The notes beneath the pieces are model-generated. The model made no database searches, was not told where the DNA came from, and was given only the letters and a program-made list of their open reading frames with translations. From Gloeobacter violaceus PCC 7421 (GTDB lineage Bacteria; Cyanobacteriota; Cyanobacteriia; Gloeobacterales; Gloeobacteraceae), in contig NC_005125.1 of NCBI RefSeq assembly GCF_000011385.1, forward strand, positions 1,054,001-1,118,000: a DNA stretch of 64,000 bases. Reading direction: 5' to 3'. Shown here piece by piece: positions 1,134-16,762 of this stretch. The translations under genes were made by a program, and so were the position numbers. Each line of letters starts with the position of its first letter. The stretch's first letter is position 1.

Positions 1134-1224
1134 GGCTTCTTCTCGATAAGACAATCTCCATGCTCCTGCCCGGAAACTGGGCGTACCTCTACCGGATGGG
1201 AGATCTCCAGAGCCCAGCGGGGCA

Positions 1225-1250
1225 TTCGTATCATCATCATTATGTGCGTG
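1225..1250 (+). repeat. ATTATGTGC repeat, copy A
   Basis: This is the leftmost of five same-orientation copies of a ~25-base motif with core ATTATGTGC (1239-1247). The left arm, with TTCGTA then an A/T-rich stretch, is closest to copy B. It lies upstream of the phosphatase gene, about 1010 bases before copy B. Confidence 0.5.
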
Positions 1251-1411
1251 CTGCTTCTTTGCGCTTCAGTTTTGAAGCTGGGCGCCGTGCCTGCAAAGAA
1301 TGCCTTCCATACTCATGTTCGGTGCAAACGCCAACTACTTTCTTGTAGTTGTAGTTGCTGCGAATCCGTCCCAGGGTTAACAACGGTCCTTCTTCTTGGG
1401 GCAGGTTTAAA

Positions 1412-2122
1412 ATGCGTTGCAGAACTGGCAAAGGTATGGTCGATTTAGAGCTTGATCCTCCGGCACGCACTTCCGATACCGACCCGATCCGCGTCGATTT
1501 TTTGCCGGAGGGCGCCCTTGGGCTTGCCGGCCGCACCGGGATGTGTTTTGCTCCCGGTAAGCACTGCCTGGGCAAGTTCGCCCTCTGGCGGCGGGATCTT
1601 GAAAAGGACCTCGACCGCCTGCGCAGACATTACGGCTCCAACTGGCTGGTAACGCTGGTACAGGCGCACGAACTGGTCGAGTTGAAGATTCCTGATTTGC
1701 TGGAGCGGGCGCGGGCCTGGGGACTTACCAGCCGTTGGTTTCCGGTGCGCGACTACGGCATTCCGACTTCGATTGCGAGCACATTGATGCTCGTCGAAGA
1801 CATCCTGATAGCTAACGGCCAGGGTAAAACCGTGGTCATCCACTGCAAAGGCGGTCTGGGGCGCACAGGACTGGTGGCCGCCTGCTGCTTGGTGGCGCGC
1901 GGTTACAGCCACAGCGAAGCCTTTGAGATCATTCGGCGCTCGCGCCCGGGCAGCATCGAGACCGCCGAGCAAGAAGCCTTCGCGCACAAGTTTGCACGCG
2001 CCTACACCGAGCTGATGGGTTTCGGCGCGTTGCCCCACCTGCACCCCCCCTTTCACCACGCCGCGGACGCGCGCGGTGAGTGGGTGAGCAGCCCACGCTA
2101 CGGGCGCTCAGCACCCGGTTGA
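1412..2122 (+). CDS. dual-specificity/tyrosine phosphatase (CDKN3-like)
   Basis: This encodes a soluble cysteine-dependent protein phosphatase of ~236 residues. The signature HCKGGLGRTG supplies the catalytic Cys (about residue 145) and the phosphate-binding Arg six residues later. An upstream aspartate in PVRDYGIP is a candidate general acid. The overall layout resembles the CDKN3-like bacterial phosphatases. The frame is open from 1355; ATG at 1412 (after GGGGCAGG) or at 1436 (MVDLEL) are the plausible starts. The C-terminal ~35 residues are low in structure. The gene stands alone between repeat copies A and B, so the context gives no substrate. Confidence 0.82.
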   Translation: MRCRTGKGMVDLELDPPARTSDTDPIRVDFLPEGALGLAGRTGMCFAPGKHCLGKFALWRRDLEKDLDRLRRHYGSNWLVTLVQAHELVELKIPDLLERARAWGLTSRWFPVRDYGIPTSIASTLMLVEDILIANGQGKTVVIHCKGGLGRTGLVAACCLVARGYSHSEAFEIIRRSRPGSIETAEQEAFAHKFARAYTELMGFGALPHLHPPFHHAADARGEWVSSPRYGRSAPG

Positions 2123-2235
2123 CGGCGGTCTCCGCGTTGATAAAACCGAATGGGCAATAACTGCGAGCCCAGTTAGCGTTCGGGGAAAAATTCCTTTACC
2201 CATACCCATTTTGTAAAAGCCCTGGGTCCATTGAT

Positions 2236-2261
2236 TTCGTGGATTAATAATTATGTGCAAA
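2236..2261 (+). repeat. ATTATGTGC repeat, copy B
   Basis: The core is 2250-2258. It lies 27 bases beyond the 3' end of the minus-strand amine oxidase fragment and ~130 bases after the phosphatase stop, in a convergent intergenic region where a promoter role is unlikely. The left arm has TTCGTGGATT. Confidence 0.55.
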
Positions 2262-2284
2262 ATCCGACGAATTGCACTCCCGAC

Positions 2285-3139
2285 TTACCGTATCGCAGTG
2301 AGCACTTCGCGGGCAGCCCGTTCGCCGGATTCACAGGCGCCGTTCATGTAGCCTTGGGAGCTGAGGCTGGTGTGCTCCCCGGCGAAGTGGATACCGCCTA
2401 CCGCCTCCGCCTCGCAACCGGCAATTTCGGTGTACTGGCCTGGGAGGTAACAGCTGTAGCTTGCCTGGATGAACGGGGCCTGGGGCCAGCCGTAGCGGGC
2501 GGCTTTGCCGGTGTACTGCGCGGCCAGGCCGACAAAGATCTGATCGAGATGTTCTACGAACGTCTCGGCCCGAACAGTGAGGGGTTTTGCCAGCAATGCC
2601 GCGCCCGCTTCTCCCCCCAGGTAGTTGGTCAGCAGTCCCGCACTGCCCGGCTGGCCGGTGCTCGCTTCCCAACTGAGCAAATAGCTGTCGCCCAGCGTCA
2701 GGCCGGTGTGTTTTTGCTTGCGCCACAGGCGCCGCTGAAAACCGGCGATGAGCTTGACGTTGGTGCCGTAGCCCAGTTCGGCGATCGCTCGGCGCTTGCG
2801 GGGGGGCAATTCCACCTGCAGCTCGACTCTGCGCAGCATTGTGAAGGGCAACGCCAGCACCACCCGGTCTGCCTGTATTTCCTGTACACCCCCGTTTTGG
2901 TGAACGACCAGACGGTAGCTGCCGTCGGTGTGGGCGCGGAGGGCCTCAAGGGTGCACCCGAAGGTAATGGGCCTGCGCAGGCGCGCGGCGATGGTCCGCG
3001 GCACACTGTCGCTTCCCTGGGCGATGCGGTAACGCTCATCCTCTTCCTCGTCTGCCATCCCAAAGAGCGAAAGCACGTTCAAGGCACTCAGCCGCTCCGG
3101 TTCAAGCCCAAATTCGCCCACGCACGAGTATGCCAGCAA
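2285..3139 (-). pseudogene. flavin amine oxidase, C-terminal half only
   Basis: These 284 residues match the substrate-binding and C-terminal FAD-binding parts of the flavin-containing monoamine oxidase family: LPFTMLRRV in the middle and GGIHFAGEHTS near the end, the usual FAD contact, followed by GYMNGACESG. Family members are 430-500 residues and begin with a GxGxxG dinucleotide fold; that half is missing. Upstream DNA (3140-3257) contains only noncoding sequence and repeat copy C, so the gene appears truncated at its 5' end. Some residual product could be made, but flavin binding should fail. It sits between repeat copies B and C. A true short protein of unknown function is a less likely alternative. 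Confidence 0.75.
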
Positions 3140-3209
3140 CGCACCACAAACTGGAGATTTTCTGACTCTTGCTAATCACCCAAAAAGGATCGCCGCGGCC
3201 AACAAAAGC

Positions 3210-3235
3210 CACACAGTTAAATTATTATGTGCATC
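3210..3235 (+). repeat. ATTATGTGC repeat, copy C
   Basis: The core is 3224-3232, preceded by ACAGTTAA. It lies 26 bases beyond the 3' end of the histidine-phosphatase gene and ~70 bases upstream of the truncated amine oxidase. The left arm (CAGTTA) closely matches copy E and approximates copy D. Confidence 0.6.
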
Positions 3236-3257
3236 ATCTCTCTGCATCCTGCCCAGG

Positions 3258-3899
3258 TTATTTCGCACTCCACTGCGCCCAGGATTCGAACGGGATGCGG
3301 GCGACGGGCTTGAAGTCTTGTCCGCCGGCGGGTTCGAACACGACGATCTCGCCTTCTGCCACATCGGCAAATTCTTTACCGGCAACATCCTGCAGGTTGG
3401 GACGGTGCCCAACAATCAGCGTGTTGGTGCCCGCGGCGGGCTTGGTCGCAAGCAGTTTGCGCAGTTCAGCTGCCCGGCGGCGGGCTTCCAAGGGTGGTAC
3501 ATTTTGAGGCTCCGAGACGTCCAGTGACAGCTCCGCATTGGCAAAACCGGCCAGTTGGGCCGCTTCTGTGGCGCGGCTGTATTTACTGGAAATCACTTTT
3601 CCAATCGGAATCGACAGCGCCCGCATCGATTCGCCGGTCGCCTTGGCCTGGGAGCGGCCCTCTGCGGTCAATTGACGTTGGGCTTTGATGTTATCCAGAT
3701 TCAAGGTGTCGGTATCGGCCTGGGCAGGATCGGTCTTCGGATGGCGCCAGAATAGAACGTATCCGCCTTTTTGCAGCGAGAGAACGATGGCTTTATCCTT
3801 TGGCGGCACGGTCGTCTGCGCGTCGCCGGTGCGCGCAAGGAGAGCCGCGGTCAGCAGACTGCCGAGCATAGCCACTGCACGCCTTCTTGGGGCTTTCAT
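3258..3899 (-). CDS. exported histidine-phosphatase-like protein
   Basis: A ~213-residue protein of the histidine phosphatase (phosphoglycerate mutase/SixA) superfamily. The catalytic Arg-His pair appears as FWRHPKTD (about residues 52-53), and the second conserved His lies in VGHRPNL. The ATG at 3899 has an AGGA ribosome-binding site and gives a basic, hydrophobic N-terminus ending in GDAQ, a probable Sec signal peptide; the longer frame to 3989 is unlikely. RHP instead of the usual RHG is seen in a subgroup of exported members, so activity remains plausible but untested. The gene stands alone between repeat copies C and D. Its substrate cannot be inferred. Confidence 0.8.
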   Translation of the reverse strand: MKAPRRRAVAMLGSLLTAALLARTGDAQTTVPPKDKAIVLSLQKGGYVLFWRHPKTDPAQADTDTLNLDNIKAQRQLTAEGRSQAKATGESMRALSIPIGKVISSKYSRATEAAQLAGFANAELSLDVSEPQNVPPLEARRRAAELRKLLATKPAAGTNTLIVGHRPNLQDVAGKEFADVAEGEIVVFEPAGGQDFKPVARIPFESWAQWSAK

Positions 3900-4139
3900 G
3901 GCAAATCCTGTGATGCATGTGAAATTGACCGGAGCGACGGGCAGAAGGTAGAGACTAAACAAGACGCTTCCGCCGTGGGAGCGATTCAAGCTTGGGAATG
4001 CCGCGTACGCCCGTCGTTTCCGGCTCTATCGTGCCTCGCTCCGCCACTTTGATCAAGCCATGGCTCTTAACCTATCCATTTGCCCTGGCGACCTGAAACA
4101 GGTACCCGCCCTCGGCCTCAAAAACCTGGGAGGCTGCAG

Positions 4140-4165
4140 TGCAGCAGTATAAACATTATGTGAAA
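4140..4165 (+). repeat. ATTATGTG repeat, copy D, beside recombinase
   Basis: The core ATTATGTG is at 4154-4161, with A instead of C in the next position. The left arm reads GCAGCAGTATAAAC. It begins 10 bases beyond the stop codon of the tyrosine recombinase. The 270 bases between this gene and the histidine-phosphatase gene hold nothing else that I recognise. Confidence 0.6.
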
Positions 4166-4172
4166 ACCGCGT

Positions 4173-4778
4173 CTACAATAGCTGAATGGCCGCCGAGACC
4201 TGCTCGTCGCTTACTTCGATATAGCGCTGCAGGGCGGCGAGGGAGCGGTGGCCTGAAATGCGTTGGATTGTGCGTAGGCCCACGCCGCTCGTGTGCAGGC
4301 GGGTGATGGCGGTGCGCCTGAGGCTGTGGGTGCTCGCTCCCTGGATGCGGCAAGCCTTGAAGGCGGCGCGAAAGGCATAATCGACCGTGCGGCGCAGCAT
4401 CGCAGTACCCGGGGAGGTGCTCTCAAAAACGTAGACCCCCCCGGGGGCAAAACTCTCCAAACAGGCGCGCAGAGCGGGATGCACCGGAATCGAGCGCGTC
4501 GAGATGCCGCCTTTGGTGCTCGCGCGGCGAAAGGTAATCACCTCCTGCACGACGTAGCGCGGGCGGCTTTTTTTGCCGACGGTGCGCACCGACCCGGTTT
4601 CATCGAGTTCGTAGACATCGGCGGTGCGCAGCGAACAGGCTTCACTGACCCGGCAGCCGGTATAGAGCATCGCCTGAAAAAGGGCTTGGTATTTGGCGTC
4701 GATGAAACCTTTTTTGAGGACGGCCTGCACTTCCTTTTCGGAGAGCACCCGGGCTTGGCCGTGGCGGTTAATTTTCAA
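4173..4778 (-). CDS. minimal tyrosine recombinase
   Basis: A 201-residue tyrosine recombinase consisting almost only of the catalytic domain. All six active-site positions are visible: Arg43 (TGCRVSEA), Lys89 in the beta-hairpin, His151 and Arg154 (HSLRRT), His177 (SGHRS) and nucleophile Tyr186 (LQRYIEV). The usual ~90-residue N-terminal core-binding domain of Xer/phage integrases is absent, as in small recombinases such as FimB/FimE. The best start is TTG at 4778 with AGAGGAA upstream. It is the last gene of a minus-strand run and one copy of the five-copy repeat abuts its 3' end, so it is the obvious candidate to act on those repeats. That link is inference. Confidence 0.9.
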   Translation of the reverse strand: MKINRHGQARVLSEKEVQAVLKKGFIDAKYQALFQAMLYTGCRVSEACSLRTADVYELDETGSVRTVGKKSRPRYVVQEVITFRRASTKGGISTRSIPVHPALRACLESFAPGGVYVFESTSPGTAMLRRTVDYAFRAAFKACRIQGASTHSLRRTAITRLHTSGVGLRTIQRISGHRSLAALQRYIEVSDEQVSAAIQLL

Positions 4779-5019
4779 GCTTTCCTCTTTTTATCAAAAT
4801 CGACGATTTCAGGATATCAGATCTGGCGCCGCTTCGTAAAACCCTTGCCCTGAGCCGATCGCAGCCTTCATTTCCCGAATGTGTAATTTCCGGAAGCTTA
4901 CAAAACGCTATAAGATGCTCAGGATATAGATCTTAGCCGATTTAGATGTCTATCTTTGAGGTACCCAGGAGCATTACGAAGCACAGGTTCCCCCAGACAC
5001 CTGAAACCTGCACTAAGGC

Positions 5020-8000
5020 TCAGCGCGGTCCACTGAGTTTCCAGTTGGGGTCACCGACCGAGGTGAGCGACATCGAACCGACAAAACTCGTCCCATTCAT
5101 GATCCACACACTGTTTTGACCGGTTGTCCCGTTGCGCCAGAGGATGTCCGCTTTGCCGTCGCCGTTGTAGTCCCCGACTCCGCCCACCTGCCAATTCAGG
5201 TCGCCCACCAACGGCAGGGCCACCGAAGCGATAAAAGCCGTGCCGTTCATCCGCCAGAGGCTGTTTTGACCGCCCGCCGTATTGCGCCAGAGAATATCGA
5301 CTTTGCCGTCTCTGCTGAAGTCTGCCACCGCGACGATCTGCCAGTTGCGGTCCGACACCGGGCTAATCAGCAAAGAAGCAACGTAGCTCGTACCGTTCAT
5401 TTGCCAAACGGTGTTTTGGCCGGTGGTGCCGTTGCGCCACAGGATGTCCGGTTTGCTGTCGCCGTTAAAATCGCCCGTGCCGCCGATTTGCCAGGCCGCA
5501 TCCCCCACCGCAGGCAGGGTGAGCGAAGAAACGAAGGCCGCCCCGTTCATCTGCCAGATGGAGTTGGCACCGGTGGCCTTGTTGCGCCAGAGAATATCGA
5601 CTCTGCCGTCGCCGGTAAAATCGCTGGCCCCGCCGATTTGCCAGTTGGGGTCGGAGACGGGGTTGACGGCCAGCGAGCGGAGGAAAGTGGTGCTGCTCAT
5701 CTGCCAGACGGTGTTTTGGCCGGTGGCGAAGTTGCGCCACAAGATGTCCGATTGGCCGTCGCCGGTGAAGTCTCCCGCCCGGTTAGTGATATTCAGAATC
5801 ACCGAGGCGTTATCGGAAAAGAAGTTGGTTGTAGCTACATCGAGTCTGCCGTCCCCATCCAGGTCCGCAACAGTAACCGACTTGGGGTCGGCTCCGGTGG
5901 CGAAATTCACCGGAGCACCGAAGCCGCCGCTGCCGTTGCCCGTAAGCACCGAGACGCTTGCAGAATCGTAATTGGCAGTAACAACATCGAGATCGCCATC
6001 TTTGTCCATGTCCCCAAGTGACAGGGCATAGGGAAAGTCTGGAACTGGAATATAAACCGGGGTGGCCAAGGTGCCGCTGCCGTTATTTTTGAAAACCGAA
6101 AGGTCGCTGTAAAAGACGCTGGCAAAGACAGCATCGAGATCGCCGTCTTGATCGACATCGCCCAGGGCGACAAAATCGGCTCCGCCGCCAAAATTGACAG
6201 GAGCGGCGAAGCTGCCGGTGCCGTTGTTTTTGAGCAATGTTGCATTCTCATCATTGACGGTGACGACATCAAGGTCGCCATCTTTATCAACATCACCCAG
6301 GGCAAGGGAAACCGGACTGTCACCGGTAGCAAAACCGCCCGCAAAGGTAAAATTGCCGCCATTGTTGATAAAGATCGTGACGATGTCATTCAATTGATCG
6401 ACAACCGCCACATCGAGATCGCCGTCCTTGTCGAGATCGCCCAGGGCAAGTCCTCGCGCGCCATCGGTCGCGGCAGTGACCGAGACGGCCGCTGCAAAAT
6501 TGCCGCCGCCGGTGTTGATGAGCACCGAGATATTTTCCTGGGAGAGGCTGCTTGCAGTCACAATATCGAGATTGCCGTCGCCGTTTACGTCTCCCACTGC
6601 CACACCGATGGGGGCCTCGGCAACAGCAAAATCAACCGGCGCCGCAAAACTGCCGCCACCAACATTTTTCAGCACCGAAACGGTGTCACCGACCAGATTG
6701 GACACGATCAAGTCCCGATCGCCGTCGCCGTCGATGTCCGCAGCCGCAACCGAGCGTGCACCGTCGCCTGCGGCAAAGGCCGAGAAGGACACAAACGTTC
6801 CGCTGCCGGTGTTGTGGACCACTGTGACGTTGCTGCCGTCTAATTCGGTGAAAACGTCATCGTAATTGGCCGTGACAATGTCGAGATCGCTGTCGCGGTC
6901 CATGTCTGCCATGACGAGCGAATTCGGCCCGCTGCCGGCCGGTTGAAAGCGGGGCGCAGCGAAATTACCACCGCCGGTGTTGACGAGTACACCGATGTTG
7001 TCAAACGTGGAACTTGCCGTCACAATATCGAGGTCACCGTCGCGATCCACATCTCCCAATCCGACTGCATTAGGAGCAATGTTATTGGTAAGAATGGAGA
7101 CCGGAACTGCGAAATTGCCGCCGCCGGTGTTCTTGAGCACCAGTACCTGCGGGTCGTCATCGACACTGAATAAATCAATAAAATTGCCCGTGACGATATC
7201 GAGATCGCCGTCCCCGTCCACATCTCCCAGCGCCAATGCGTAGGGAGCATTACTACCGGCAACCCCCGCAGTCACATTGACCGCAGCAGCAAAGCCGGCG
7301 AGACCATCGTTTTTGAGTAAAGAGAGATTTTCGGACTCCTCATTGGCGCAGACAATATCGAGGTCGCCGTCGTTGTCAATATCGCCAATCTTGACCACTT
7401 CGGGGTTGCTGCCCACAGCCAGATCGACGCGCGAACCAAAGCCGCCGCTGCCGTTGTTCTTGAGCACCGTGACCTTATCTTCGTAGCTACTGGCAGTGAC
7501 CACATCGAGATCCCCGTCTTTGTCAAGATCTCCTAGGTCTACCGATACAGGCTCATCTCCCACCAAAAAGGCGGTAGGAGAGCCGAATCCACCGCTGCCG
7601 TTGTTTTTGAGCACCGAAATTTGCGGGGAGTCAAATGTGTTGGTGACCACAGCATCGAGGTCGCCGTCACTGTCTATATCTCCCAGGGCAATCGCATCGA
7701 CGATTTCCCCGGCGGGAAAATTGCTCGGGGCACCAAAAGTTCCGGTGCCGTTGTTTTTGAGTACCGAAATACTGTCGGCAACGGAGTTGGCTGTGACCAC
7801 ATCGAGATCGCCGTCCTTGTCGATATCGCCCACCGCTGCTGCCACTGTCGGCGCTTGGGCCAGAAAAGAACGCGGAGCAGCCAGTTCCACCTGTGCAGCT
7901 GCCGGGACTGCCGTCAGCCACACAGATAAAGCCAGGGTAAGCCACCGCTGGCGCAGTACTCTAGCTGGCGAACCATGGGTTTGCCCACAGTCTTTTTGGA

Positions 8001-8031
8001 CGATTCCACACACCGGACGGAGCGTCATCAT
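5020..8031 (-). CDS. secreted VCBS/FG-GAP repeat protein, 1003 aa
   Basis: A large exported repeat protein. A signal peptide ends at about residue 47 (PAAAQ), followed by the mature start VELAAPRSF. Residues ~50-740 hold more than a dozen repeats of the form GDIDKDGDLDVVTAN...VLKNNGTGxF, the calcium-loop (DxDxDGxxD) VCBS/FG-GAP type that builds beta-propellers. Residues ~745-1003 hold about five repeats of a second type, GDFxGDGxxDILWRN..TGQNxxWQM. No catalytic domain or membrane anchor is visible, so a surface or extracellular binding role is likely but not shown. GAGG precedes the ATG at 8031. The upstream paralogue is 29 bases away and probably co-transcribed. Confidence 0.88.
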   Translation of the reverse strand: MMTLRPVCGIVQKDCGQTHGSPARVLRQRWLTLALSVWLTAVPAAAQVELAAPRSFLAQAPTVAAAVGDIDKDGDLDVVTANSVADSISVLKNNGTGTFGAPSNFPAGEIVDAIALGDIDSDGDLDAVVTNTFDSPQISVLKNNGSGGFGSPTAFLVGDEPVSVDLGDLDKDGDLDVVTASSYEDKVTVLKNNGSGGFGSRVDLAVGSNPEVVKIGDIDNDGDLDIVCANEESENLSLLKNDGLAGFAAAVNVTAGVAGSNAPYALALGDVDGDGDLDIVTGNFIDLFSVDDDPQVLVLKNTGGGNFAVPVSILTNNIAPNAVGLGDVDRDGDLDIVTASSTFDNIGVLVNTGGGNFAAPRFQPAGSGPNSLVMADMDRDSDLDIVTANYDDVFTELDGSNVTVVHNTGSGTFVSFSAFAAGDGARSVAAADIDGDGDRDLIVSNLVGDTVSVLKNVGGGSFAAPVDFAVAEAPIGVAVGDVNGDGNLDIVTASSLSQENISVLINTGGGNFAAAVSVTAATDGARGLALGDLDKDGDLDVAVVDQLNDIVTIFINNGGNFTFAGGFATGDSPVSLALGDVDKDGDLDVVTVNDENATLLKNNGTGSFAAPVNFGGGADFVALGDVDQDGDLDAVFASVFYSDLSVFKNNGSGTLATPVYIPVPDFPYALSLGDMDKDGDLDVVTANYDSASVSVLTGNGSGGFGAPVNFATGADPKSVTVADLDGDGRLDVATTNFFSDNASVILNITNRAGDFTGDGQSDILWRNFATGQNTVWQMSSTTFLRSLAVNPVSDPNWQIGGASDFTGDGRVDILWRNKATGANSIWQMNGAAFVSSLTLPAVGDAAWQIGGTGDFNGDSKPDILWRNGTTGQNTVWQMNGTSYVASLLISPVSDRNWQIVAVADFSRDGKVDILWRNTAGGQNSLWRMNGTAFIASVALPLVGDLNWQVGGVGDYNGDGKADILWRNGTTGQNSVWIMNGTSFVGSMSLTSVGDPNWKLSGPR

Positions 8032-8060
8032 CTCGCTTACCTCGACTATTTGAATGTTCC

Positions 8061-11033
8061 CTAGCGCGGTCCGCTGATTTTCCAGTTGAGATCACTGACG
8101 GAAGTCAGCGACAGCGAACTCACAAAAGTCGTCCCATTCATGATCCACACGATGTTTTGGCCCGTCGCACCGTTGCGCCAGAGAATGTCCACTTTGCCGT
8201 CGCCGTTGTAGTCCCCGACGCCGCCTACTTGCCAATTCAGGTCGCTGACCAACGGCAGAGCGACCGAGGAAATAAAAGCCGTACCGTTCATCCGCCAAAC
8301 GCTATTTTGCCCACCCGCCGTGTTACGCCAGAGAATATCGACTTTTCCGTCTTGACTAAAATCGCCCGCTCCAACAATTTGCCAGTTGCGGTCACCCACC
8401 GGGCTAATCGGCAAAGAAGCGACGTACGTTGCACCGTTCATTTGCCAGACGGTGTTTTGGCTGGTGGTACCGTTGCGCCATAAAATGTCTGGTTTATTGT
8501 CGCCATTGAAGTCGCCCGTACCGCCGATTTGCCAGTTCAAATCTCCCACCACGGGCAGAGTAGTCGAAGTTACAAAAGCAGCGCCGTTCATCTGCCAGAT
8601 GGAGTTGGCTCCGGTGGCTTTGTTGCGCCAGAGGATGTCCACTTTGCCGTCGCCGGTAAAATCGCTGGCGCCACCGATCAGCCAGTTGGGGTCGGAGACC
8701 GGGTTGACGGCCAGCGAACGCACGAAGGTTGTACTGCTCATCTGCCAGATGGAATTTTGGCCAGTTGCAGTGTTGCGCCACAAGATATCCGATTGGGCGT
8801 CGCCGGTAAAGTCTCCTGCCCGGTTGGTAATGTTGAACAGCACCGAAGCGTCGTCAGTGTCGCGGTTGGCGGTGGCAACATCCAGGTCGCCGTCGCCGTC
8901 GAGGTCTGCGAGCGCAACCGAGCGGGGGTCATCTCCAGTGGCAAAGTTGATGGGGGTGCTGAAACCACCGGTGCCATTGTTGGTGAGCACCGAGACGCTG
9001 TCGGAATAGTCGTTGCCGGTAACGATGTCGAGATCCCCGTCCCTGTCCATATCCCCCAAAGCCAGCGAATATGGAAAGTCCCTGACCCCGAAGTAGCCAA
9101 AGGCCGTAAATCCACCACTGCCGTTGTTTTTGAAGACCGAGACATCGCCGTAAAATTCGCTGGCGGTGACAATATCGAGATCGCCGTCTTTGTCGACATC
9201 GCCCAGGGCTACGAAATCGGCCCCGGCCCCGAAGTTGACGGGAGCAGCGAAACTGCCCGCACCGCTATTTTTGAGCACCGAGACATTGTCGTAGTTCGAG
9301 GTGACGACATCGAGATCGCCGTCTTTGTCGACATCTCCTACGGCCACCGAGAGCGGACCCTGGCCGGTGAGAAAATTGGCCGCCCGGGTAAAATTGCCGC
9401 CGGTGTTGACGAGCAGCGATATGTTGTCCTCGTCGCGGTTGGCAGCCACAATGTCGAGGTCGCCGTCTTTGTCCATATCCCCCAGGGCCACCCCGCGCGC
9501 CTCGTCGCCTGCCAGGATGTTGGCTGCGGTCGCGAAAGCTCCTGTGCCATCGTTTTTGAGCACCGAGACGTCGTAGGAGGTACTGTTGGCGGTCACCGCA
9601 TCGAGATCGCCGTCGCCGTCCACATCCCCCAGGGCCACCGATTCGGGGTCAGTGCCGACATCAAAAGTGCCGGCGGCGACAAAGGTACCAGTTCCAGCAT
9701 TCTTGAGCACCGTCACGGTGTCGTTGTTGATATGGGCCACGATCAAGTCTCGGTCGCCGTCGCCGTCAAGATCGCCTGCCGCCACCGAACGTGGACCGTA
9801 GTCCGTGGCAAAGTTCGCGAAAGTGACAAACGTTCCGGGTCCGGTGTTCTTGATCACTGAGACATTGCTGCCGTCAAAATCGTCCACGAAGTCCGAGTTG
9901 GCCGTGACGATGTCGAGATCGCCGTCTTTGTCCAGATCCGCCAAAGCCACCGAGCGCGGACCATCCGCGGCCGGTAAAATGACCGGAGCCGCAAACACAC
10001 CGCTACCGGTGTTCTTGAGCACCACGGCGCGATCGCCGTAGCTTGTCGCGACCACATCCAGGTCGCCGTCTTTGTCCACATCCCCGAGCGCCAGCGAGCC
10101 TGGAGTGATTTCATTGGTCAGCGTGGCGCTCGGGGCGGCAAAATTGCCGCCGCCGGTATTCTTGAGCACCAGCACCTGCGGATCGTCGGGCACCCCAAAA
10201 AAATTGATAAAGTTGCCGGTGACAATGTCGAGATCCCCGTCGCCGTCCACATCGCCAAGCGCCAAAGCGTAAGGGTCGTTTCCAGCAATGGAGGCGACAA
10301 AGCTGAGGGCAACGGCAAAAGTACCGTTGCTGTTGTTTTTGAGCACCGAGACATTCCCGGGAATGGAGTTGGCGGTGACGATGTCTAGATCGCCGTCGTT
10401 ATCGACGTCGCCCAGGGCCACCACGTAAGGGTTGTTGCCCACCGTCAGGTCGACGCGCGAACCAAAGCCGCCGCTGCCGTTGTTGATGAGCACCGAGACG
10501 CTGTCATCGAAATTGTTGGCGGTGACAATGTCGAGATCCCCGTCTTTATCCAGATCGCCCAGGGCCACCGATTCCGGTTCATCTCCGACCGCAACAGTGA
10601 CCGGGGCTCCAAAACCGCCGCTGCCGTTGTTCTTGAGCACCGAGACGGCGAAGGAGGTAAACGTATTGTTGGTCACGATGTCGAGGTCGCCGTCGCCGTC
10701 GACGTCCCCCAGAGCCAACGCCTCGACCGATTCACCGGCCCGGAAGTTGGCAGGCGCGCCAAAATTCCCGCTGCCGTCGTTTTTGAGCACCGAGACGCTG
10801 TCGGAGGTGAAGTTGGCCGTCACCACGTCCAGATCCCCGTCTTTGTCGATATCCCCCACCGCCACCGCCAACGAAGGCGCTTCGGCCAGAAAAGTGCGCG
10901 GAGCGGCCAGCTCCACCTGGGCGGCCACCGGGACGGCCAGCAGCATCGAAGCGGCCAGAGCGAGCCACCCCCCCCGCCGCTTCAGTCTCAATAATTCTCG
11001 ATTTGTCAGCTGACACTTGTACAACATCGACAT
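8061..11033 (-). CDS. secreted VCBS/FG-GAP repeat protein, 990 aa (paralogue)
   Basis: Paralogue of the next gene, with the same order: signal peptide ending PVAAQ, identical mature start VELAAPR, calcium-loop VCBS/FG-GAP repeats to about residue 730, then the same five WRN/WQM-type repeats and an almost identical C-terminus (NWKISGPR). ATG at 11033 with GGGAGG upstream is the best start; a GTG nine bases earlier is possible. The two genes look like a tandem duplication that has since diverged. Long direct similarity between them makes the pair prone to recombination and to assembly error. Function is unknown; extracellular ligand or surface binding is an inference from the fold. Confidence 0.87.
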   Translation of the reverse strand: MSMLYKCQLTNRELLRLKRRGGWLALAASMLLAVPVAAQVELAAPRTFLAEAPSLAVAVGDIDKDGDLDVVTANFTSDSVSVLKNDGSGNFGAPANFRAGESVEALALGDVDGDGDLDIVTNNTFTSFAVSVLKNNGSGGFGAPVTVAVGDEPESVALGDLDKDGDLDIVTANNFDDSVSVLINNGSGGFGSRVDLTVGNNPYVVALGDVDNDGDLDIVTANSIPGNVSVLKNNSNGTFAVALSFVASIAGNDPYALALGDVDGDGDLDIVTGNFINFFGVPDDPQVLVLKNTGGGNFAAPSATLTNEITPGSLALGDVDKDGDLDVVATSYGDRAVVLKNTGSGVFAAPVILPAADGPRSVALADLDKDGDLDIVTANSDFVDDFDGSNVSVIKNTGPGTFVTFANFATDYGPRSVAAGDLDGDGDRDLIVAHINNDTVTVLKNAGTGTFVAAGTFDVGTDPESVALGDVDGDGDLDAVTANSTSYDVSVLKNDGTGAFATAANILAGDEARGVALGDMDKDGDLDIVAANRDEDNISLLVNTGGNFTRAANFLTGQGPLSVAVGDVDKDGDLDVVTSNYDNVSVLKNSGAGSFAAPVNFGAGADFVALGDVDKDGDLDIVTASEFYGDVSVFKNNGSGGFTAFGYFGVRDFPYSLALGDMDRDGDLDIVTGNDYSDSVSVLTNNGTGGFSTPINFATGDDPRSVALADLDGDGDLDVATANRDTDDASVLFNITNRAGDFTGDAQSDILWRNTATGQNSIWQMSSTTFVRSLAVNPVSDPNWLIGGASDFTGDGKVDILWRNKATGANSIWQMNGAAFVTSTTLPVVGDLNWQIGGTGDFNGDNKPDILWRNGTTSQNTVWQMNGATYVASLPISPVGDRNWQIVGAGDFSQDGKVDILWRNTAGGQNSVWRMNGTAFISSVALPLVSDLNWQVGGVGDYNGDGKVDILWRNGATGQNIVWIMNGTTFVSSLSLTSVSDLNWKISGPR

Positions 11034-11138
11034 TTTCCCCACCTCCCCGTCAACCAGCAGACAGGGCTCCCATGTTTATATGGACGGCGCGCAAAAAAAA
11101 CTTAAGCCCAAAGCCAAAAAGCTTTGTTGAAAACCGGC

Positions 11139-11552
11139 TCAGGGCTCAGACCACCCCCGGTCCGGCCAGGCGGCCTCGAACCGCGCCGCCAACGCTCGAT
11201 AATCCGAATGGTCCGCCTCCCAGCCCACCAGACCCGCAACAAACTGTTCGATCGACTCCGCTGCCCATGCCTGCGGGCAACGCGCCTCCAGACGCAGCAA
11301 ATAGCGCTCGCAGCCGAAGCGCAGCGTCGGATAACTGGCAAGCTGCCGGTTTTGAGTGTCCATAAAACTCTGGGCGCCCTCGCGCGGCGTCCAGGGGATA
11401 TGCCAGTAGTTGTGGTGGCGGCGGGCCGCCTCGCTGGTCAGCCCTTCGCAAGCCCACTGGGCATGCACCCAGCCGAAGCGGGCCAAGCCGGGACGCAGTA
11501 CATACAGCGTGCGCAACAAGACGCCGCCGGTGTCGGTGGAACCTGCAACCAT
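11139..11552 (-). CDS. hypothetical protein, 137 aa
   Basis: I do not recognise this protein. It is soluble, rich in Trp, His and Arg (segments such as HHNYWHIPWTP), with no signal peptide or membrane segment. It is kept as a gene because composition and codon use look coding and it heads the minus-strand run leading into the two FG-GAP genes. No convincing ribosome-binding site precedes the ATG at 11552. Instead, repeat copy E begins only six bases upstream of that ATG, so the gene abuts a putative recombination junction. Confidence 0.55.
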   Translation of the reverse strand: MVAGSTDTGGVLLRTLYVLRPGLARFGWVHAQWACEGLTSEAARRHHNYWHIPWTPREGAQSFMDTQNRQLASYPTLRFGCERYLLRLEARCPQAWAAESIEQFVAGLVGWEADHSDYRALAARFEAAWPDRGWSEP

Positions 11553-11558
11553 GATTGA

Positions 11559-11585
11559 TTACGCAGTTATGCCATTATGTGCAAA
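11559..11585 (+). repeat. ATTATGTGC repeat, copy E
   Basis: The core is 11574-11582, preceded by ACGCAGTTATGCC. It is the rightmost copy found and marks the border between the accessory region and the phosphoketolase operon. The left half GCAGTTAT and right half ATTATGTGC form an imperfect inverted repeat, as expected for a two-armed recombinase site. Confidence 0.6.

Positions 11586-14191: not shown

Positions 14192-16762
<2,571 letters not shown>

Follow-up and report, generated by a model that had tools for sequence, protein, structure and literature searches.

Five short direct repeats surround the gene of a minimal tyrosine recombinase in Gloeobacter violaceus PCC 7421, and the locus raises the question of what these repeats are, and whether the recombinase in their midst is the enzyme that acts on them. 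A first-pass annotation of the window, i.e. the whole stretch of 64,000 nucleotides analysed here, had proposed that the repeats are core sites of the adjacent recombinase and that the intervals between them are mobile cassettes.

The core motif ATTATGTG occurs in the window at positions 1239, 2250, 3224, 4155 and 11574, in all cases intergenic and on the plus strand; four of these starts were correct in the first-pass annotation, while the fourth had been placed at 4154. The five copies compare with 0.50 expected, and none of 100 shuffles reached five. The single orientation and the confinement to five copies in the 64 kb, both noted earlier, were confirmed. Extending the search to the whole host genome (a single contig of 4,659,019 bases), as the annotation had suggested, returned 24 copies, only those of the array being armed. 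The 19 copies outside the array mostly read GATTATGTG and, by appearance rather than by a per-copy frame check, look like coding sequence for the most part; a general genomic motif was rejected because these other copies lack arms. By a rough estimate, a same-strand cluster of this density would arise by chance somewhere in the genome with a probability of 5e-7. In two of the relatives considered below, G002 and G004, copies outside the arrays form no armed clusters, with a few copies possibly intergenic, and a position-matrix scan detected no further degenerate repeat copies within the arrays.

We then derived a consensus weighted to 12 independent sites. It comprises the invariant ATTATGTG, after which CAA is the usual continuation, and a left half that is weaker and reads CGYA at positions -12 to -9. 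The upstream arm CGCAGTTATAA described earlier indeed reflects a shared left element, although it is better seen as a weak, partly conserved left half-site opposite an invariant right half, TTATGTG. The dif site of E. coli reads GGTGCGCATAA-TGTATA-TTATGTTAAAT, and the distance from CGCA to TTATG is the same in the repeats, yielding a 28-bp layout of 11-6-11 that agrees with XerCD/dif sites in spacing and right half. Delimited in this manner, and all on the plus strand, site A spans 1223..1250 (core 1239-1246), B 2234..2261 (core 2250-2257), C 3208..3235 (core 3224-3231), D 4139..4166 (core 4155-4162) and E 11558..11585 (core 11574-11581). As the first-pass annotation stated, B, C and D are located 10-27 bp beyond the stop of a minus-strand gene: 27 bp for B (an amine oxidase remnant), 26 bp for C (a histidine phosphatase) and 10 bp for D (the recombinase). 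In G001, a close relative that has kept the minus-strand gene next to A, this site likewise follows the stop of that gene; E lies upstream of a phosphoketolase gene.

The position matrix gives each array site a score of at least 23.4, as compared to at most 10.6 at all other positions in those loci. Several of the best non-site scores are the second strands of array sites themselves, and the sites are thus imperfect palindromes. Between homologous sites of three close strains, the core shows 0 differences in 117 positions versus 123 in 637 in the flanks (about 19%; p = 2.5e-10, an optimistic value as it assumes independent pairs). The sites were located by the exact core, but every homologous place that survives has it, so the search did not create this conservation. 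In the window genome (G000), no two of the six-base spacers of A-E are identical, and G004 has the same spacer in three of its four sites. Folding of the attC type is absent from the five window sites (z-scores from -0.9 to +1.4), as had been anticipated, and an RNA element was rejected, as comparison with Rfam gave no match. The data support a reading of the five repeats as dif-like sites of a recombination type, which partly sustains the earlier annotation.

The recombinase itself (4173..4778, minus strand) is Xer-like and 200 aa long, comprising the catalytic domain only, with all six catalytic residues conserved (Arg42, Lys88, His150, Arg153, His176 and Tyr185) and XerA as its best fold match. 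With a dN/dS of 0.02-0.03 between close strains, it is under very strong, housekeeping-level purifying selection. The integron integrase model TIGR02249 scores 36 bits on the protein against a cut-off of 265; this score and the absent attC folding reject a classical integron, as the first-pass annotation had also judged. Relatives of 36-49% identity are widespread in cyanobacteria, many of them on plasmids, and the same protein family includes small tyrosine recombinases encoded on cyanobacterial plasmids, which are 40-47% identical and have no annotation beyond site-specific integrase. These plasmid-borne homologues lack a ATTATGTG array, whereas the Gloeobacter gene is chromosomal and single-copy. 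A literature search returned no study of this plasmid recombinase family. On the Nostoc plasmid pNPM10 (L282; recorded as linear), a relative is found near a gene of the protelomerase family.

Upstream of the recombinase gene, once per genome, we observed a further element, site U (4870..4897), an imperfect 11-6-11 palindrome, ATTTCCCGAAT-GTGTAA-TTTCCGGAAGC, with arms unlike the repeats. It reads ATTTCCTGAAA-TTACAC-ATTCGGGAAAT in G002, and in Gloeobacter it precedes the gene by about 120 bases. A conserved TTTCAGGATATCAGA (4807..4821), situated between U and the start of the recombinase, may represent a promoter or binding element. In many family members, a comparable 11-6-11 palindrome precedes the gene by 40-80 bases, and at least nine matching arm positions were recovered upstream of 32 of 80 family loci, versus 9 of 80 when shuffled. 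In a group of 21 loci, chosen for having the palindrome, the arms are 73% identical and the spacer 34%, the pattern expected of recombination sites, and a clear palindrome is present in only one of seven plasmid copies examined, so that the feature is not universal in the family. We presume from these patterns that U is the cognate site of the family. As the family's own palindrome differs from the repeats, A-E are probably not its own site, at odds with the initial proposal that the adjacent recombinase acts on them. One vertically conserved gene with a single adjacent site, as which U would serve, is also the arrangement of single-recombinase Xer systems. In a set of nine Nostocales homologues (L125, L129, L132, L138, L144, L153, L154, L161 and L170), TGATAAGTT is located at about -120, a promoter-like TACAATACTT block is likewise conserved, and most of this set display an 11-6-11 palindrome at about -50. 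We considered TGATAAGTT as a second repeat family and rejected it, as this conserved element occurs singly upstream of the gene and forms no arrays.

The recombinase was recovered in five genomes: four of Gloeobacter (G000, G001, G002 and G003) and one of another genus of the same family (G004), G001 and G004 being drafts. Identity to the window copy is 99% in G001, 98% in G003, 85% in G002 and 76% in G004, and the full gene is found once per genome, with a 47-codon 3' fragment nearby in G004. A direct ATTATGTG array of three to five copies is situated beside the recombinase in all five, in line with the link that the first-pass annotation had proposed to examine in relatives. G001 holds sites A, B, D and E, and G003 A-E, with the core at the homologous place of A in both; G004 has four sites across 10 kb. 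The genes at the G002 and G004 arrays are unrelated to those of the window, and the phosphoketolase and ribA neighbourhoods of G002, G004 and G005, examined for an empty site, differ. Site D is retained in all five genomes, 10-20 bp from the recombinase stop, and E only in G000, G001 and G003. Homology between the two genera starts exactly at the ATTATGTG of site D and continues through the recombinase and its upstream region; the G004 fragment also begins at a repeat, with homology from six bases left of the core. A short dispersed repeat immediately precedes one G004 array site (contig C157, reverse-complement ~14897-14982), with pieces of 29-86 bp, up to 100% identical, on several other contigs, and the G002 neighbourhood (C1:3798000-3802300) includes an insertion sequence with at least five near-identical copies in that genome.

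What lies between the repeats are genes bounded by dif-like sites in a row, as in dif/pdif modules, although all sites are direct in the five genomes rather than alternating. In the window, these are a dual-specificity-type phosphatase (1355..2122, plus strand) between A and B, the amine oxidase remnant (2285..3139, minus), full length in G003 and with its N-terminal part deleted in the window, between B and C, the exported histidine phosphatase (3258..3989, minus) between C and D, and two FG-GAP repeat proteins (5020..8031 and 8061..11042, both minus) between D and E. The FG-GAP proteins, in tandem over 5020-11042, are of about 1000 aa each and 75-85% alike in parts; G003 has one copy, so the difference reflects a lineage-specific duplication or loss.

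G000, G001 and G003, about 94% identical here, share a common array with the same genes between the same repeats, and differ by deletions inside the intervals with ends away from the repeats. G001 has lost site C through a deletion whose ends lie 47 bp past the B core and 38 bp past the C core, so that a site-specific B-C excision was discarded; in G000, part of the amine oxidase is gone, as is the gene adjoining A (a 147-aa ORF in G001). The claim that the intervals are currently mobile cassettes was not upheld, as the close strains differ by internal deletions and not by exchange at the repeats. The first-pass annotation had itself named syntenic strains without changes at the repeats as contrary evidence; the close strains nearly provide this. 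The genes of the more distant genomes differ wholly. Between U and the FG-GAP gene (4898-5019; homologous stretch in L041 and L042), the DNA of the three close strains is unrelated. The window has 123 bp at this place, G001 a 167-aa ORF, and G003 a TetR-type regulator with a 177-aa ORF, which points to differential loss or to a hotspot of insertion next to U.

In all five recombinase genomes the host XerC has lost its nucleophilic Tyr along with Lys and His II (scoring 134 bits in G000), and the host XerD is without Arg I and Lys (223 bits in G000). Judged by these residues, both look catalytically inactive, and none of the five genomes appears to hold a competent pair. The frames nevertheless stay open, except for a short XerC frame in G002 and a G004 XerD cut by a contig end, and dN/dS between close strains is 0.15-0.16 for XerD and 0.23-0.37 for XerC, indicating moderate selection. 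G005, a draft genome of the same family with 8% contamination and without the recombinase, has all catalytic residues in XerC (328 bits) and XerD (308 bits), and the more distant G006 has an intact XerC. One intergenic, palindromic dif candidate, GGTACGCATAA-TGCTTA-TTATGTGCGAA, was detected in G005 from sequence alone; it is identical to E. coli dif at 21 of 28 positions and moderately significant (about 0.1 exact match expected with E. coli-derived half-sites, by our own estimate). In the repeats, the left, XerC-type half is degenerate and the right, XerD-type half invariant, and XerC is the more decayed protein. The two patterns run in parallel, a correlation rather than proof. The association of XerCD decay with the recombinase, drawn from only five related genomes, amounts to one or few evolutionary events. 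GC skew, at 20 points in each of three genomes, gave no usable switch and is too weak to place the locus at the terminus, and coding bias and KOPS-like motifs yielded no signal for the terminus. Weak GC skew has been reported for cyanobacteria (PMC3025954), and xerC is rare among them (PMC5101192).

Aggregated, we tentatively favor, at slightly less than an even chance, an old array of dif modules that was entered by a plasmid-type single-recombinase system which took over from XerCD. The five repeats would be copies of a dif-type (Xer) site and the locus an array of dif-bounded gene modules, presumably made by XerCD. The plasmid-type recombinase, together with its own palindrome U, would have joined this array before Gloeobacter and its sister genus diverged, possibly as a dif module itself, with a second flanking site, E, seen only in the three close strains. 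U would be where the recombinase cuts, and the strong selection on the enzyme would most likely stem from takeover of chromosome (dimer) resolution, with XerC and XerD losing catalysis after its arrival. The parts read directly from the sequences are the repeats with their layout, the linkage, the homology breakpoint, the single U, the XerC/XerD residue losses and the selection on the recombinase. Several points count against this account. U is decayed in G000 and G001, with arm matches at 7 of 11 positions, and the three G002 sites, spaced at 46-50 bp, enclose no gene. Among close strains, no gain or loss was seen precisely at a repeat. GC skew does not place the locus at the terminus, and the G005 dif candidate, from a contaminated draft, is only moderately significant. 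The core is perfectly conserved despite inactive-looking XerC and XerD, which a pure relic would not explain.

Among the alternatives, an integron-like platform is possible but rather unlikely. Here the recombinase would cut double-stranded ATTATGTG at its left edge, D would be attI-like, and a gene with its 3' repeat would form a cassette added next to D. The constant proximity of D to the recombinase stop, an array extending from the 3' side of the recombinase in each genome, the gene stops preceding A-D (A as seen in G001) and a homology break exactly at the right box would all fit, and the strong right box, weak left box and variable spacers resemble integron simple sites. However, the conserved palindrome of the family is U, with different arms, G005 has a repeat-type site without the recombinase, E is on the other side of the recombinase, and neither fresh cassette movement between close strains nor attC-like folding was observed.

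It is improbable that the array instead grew by tandem accretion, with integrative elements each bringing a site and sometimes a recombinase, leaving attL/attR scars of no continuing function. Such a history would account for the second G004 site followed by the recombinase fragment, for D and E flanking a recombinase-bearing segment in three strains, and for the decay of genes within the array, but it does not sit well with a perfectly conserved core in diverged flanks, nor with a recombinase that is under housekeeping-level selection rather than decaying. Quite improbable, in turn, is a split Xer system, where inactive XerC and XerD still bind and position the dif-like sites, XerD on the invariant TTATGTG half, and the recombinase carries out strand exchange in trans, either at U or on the repeats; if true, one complex would serve both chromosome resolution and module capture. 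Finally, regulator binding sites or 3'-end elements unrelated to recombination are very unlikely, for while most sites are found shortly after the end of a gene or close to a promoter and a protein-binding constraint would likewise conserve the core, armed clusters occur only beside the recombinase in every genome, amid unrelated genes, with a dif-like 11-6-11 layout and neither an Rfam match nor a stable fold.

Under the favored takeover of an old dif-module array, the locus represents a concrete candidate for chromosome resolution in one early-branching cyanobacterial lineage. If true, XerCD catalysis would have been lost after replacement by a plasmid-type recombinase without the usual N-terminal domain. 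The locus would also offer an example of direct-orientation dif-type modules on a chromosome, and the U-type palindrome is a proposed recombination site for a large family of cyanobacterial plasmid recombinases. In a published survey, dif prediction failed in every cyanobacterium tried (PMC3025954), and our literature search returned no paper on this array, on a Gloeobacter integron or on loss of XerCD catalysis there.

How does the locus relate to known systems? In the dif/pdif modules and dif module islands of Acinetobacter, genes are likewise bounded by dif-like Xer sites, on plasmids and the chromosome; however, those sites alternate (C/D, D/C) and are acted on by host XerCD (PMC6449649, PMC12907356). 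The Gloeobacter sites, by contrast, are direct, with a minimal recombinase inside the array and a XerC and XerD of inactive appearance. Integrons similarly combine a recombinase with single-gene units in a row, each gene being followed at its 3' end by a site, but the Gloeobacter recombinase lacks the N-terminal domain, no cassette exchange was seen, and the sites are without attC hairpins. At the dif site of Vibrio cholerae, direct dif-like repeats accumulate as IMEX such as the CTX phage integrate. There, phages and islands make use of host XerCD, while the Gloeobacter inserts are ordinary single genes in a host with inactive-looking XerCD. Single-recombinase Xer systems, XerS/difSL, XerH/difH and XerL/dif, provide a further likeness: within a lineage, XerCD is replaced by one Xer-like recombinase whose gene is vertically conserved, the site adjoins the gene for XerS and a Coxiella plasmid copy of XerL, as U does, and mobile elements integrate at such dif sites (PMC5357621, PMC9765430). 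XerS (356 aa) and XerH (354-362 aa) are two-domain proteins, as opposed to the 200 aa and sole catalytic domain of the Gloeobacter recombinase, and, unlike in these systems, inactive-looking XerC and XerD persist in Gloeobacter and the gene lies amid an array made up of a second type of site.
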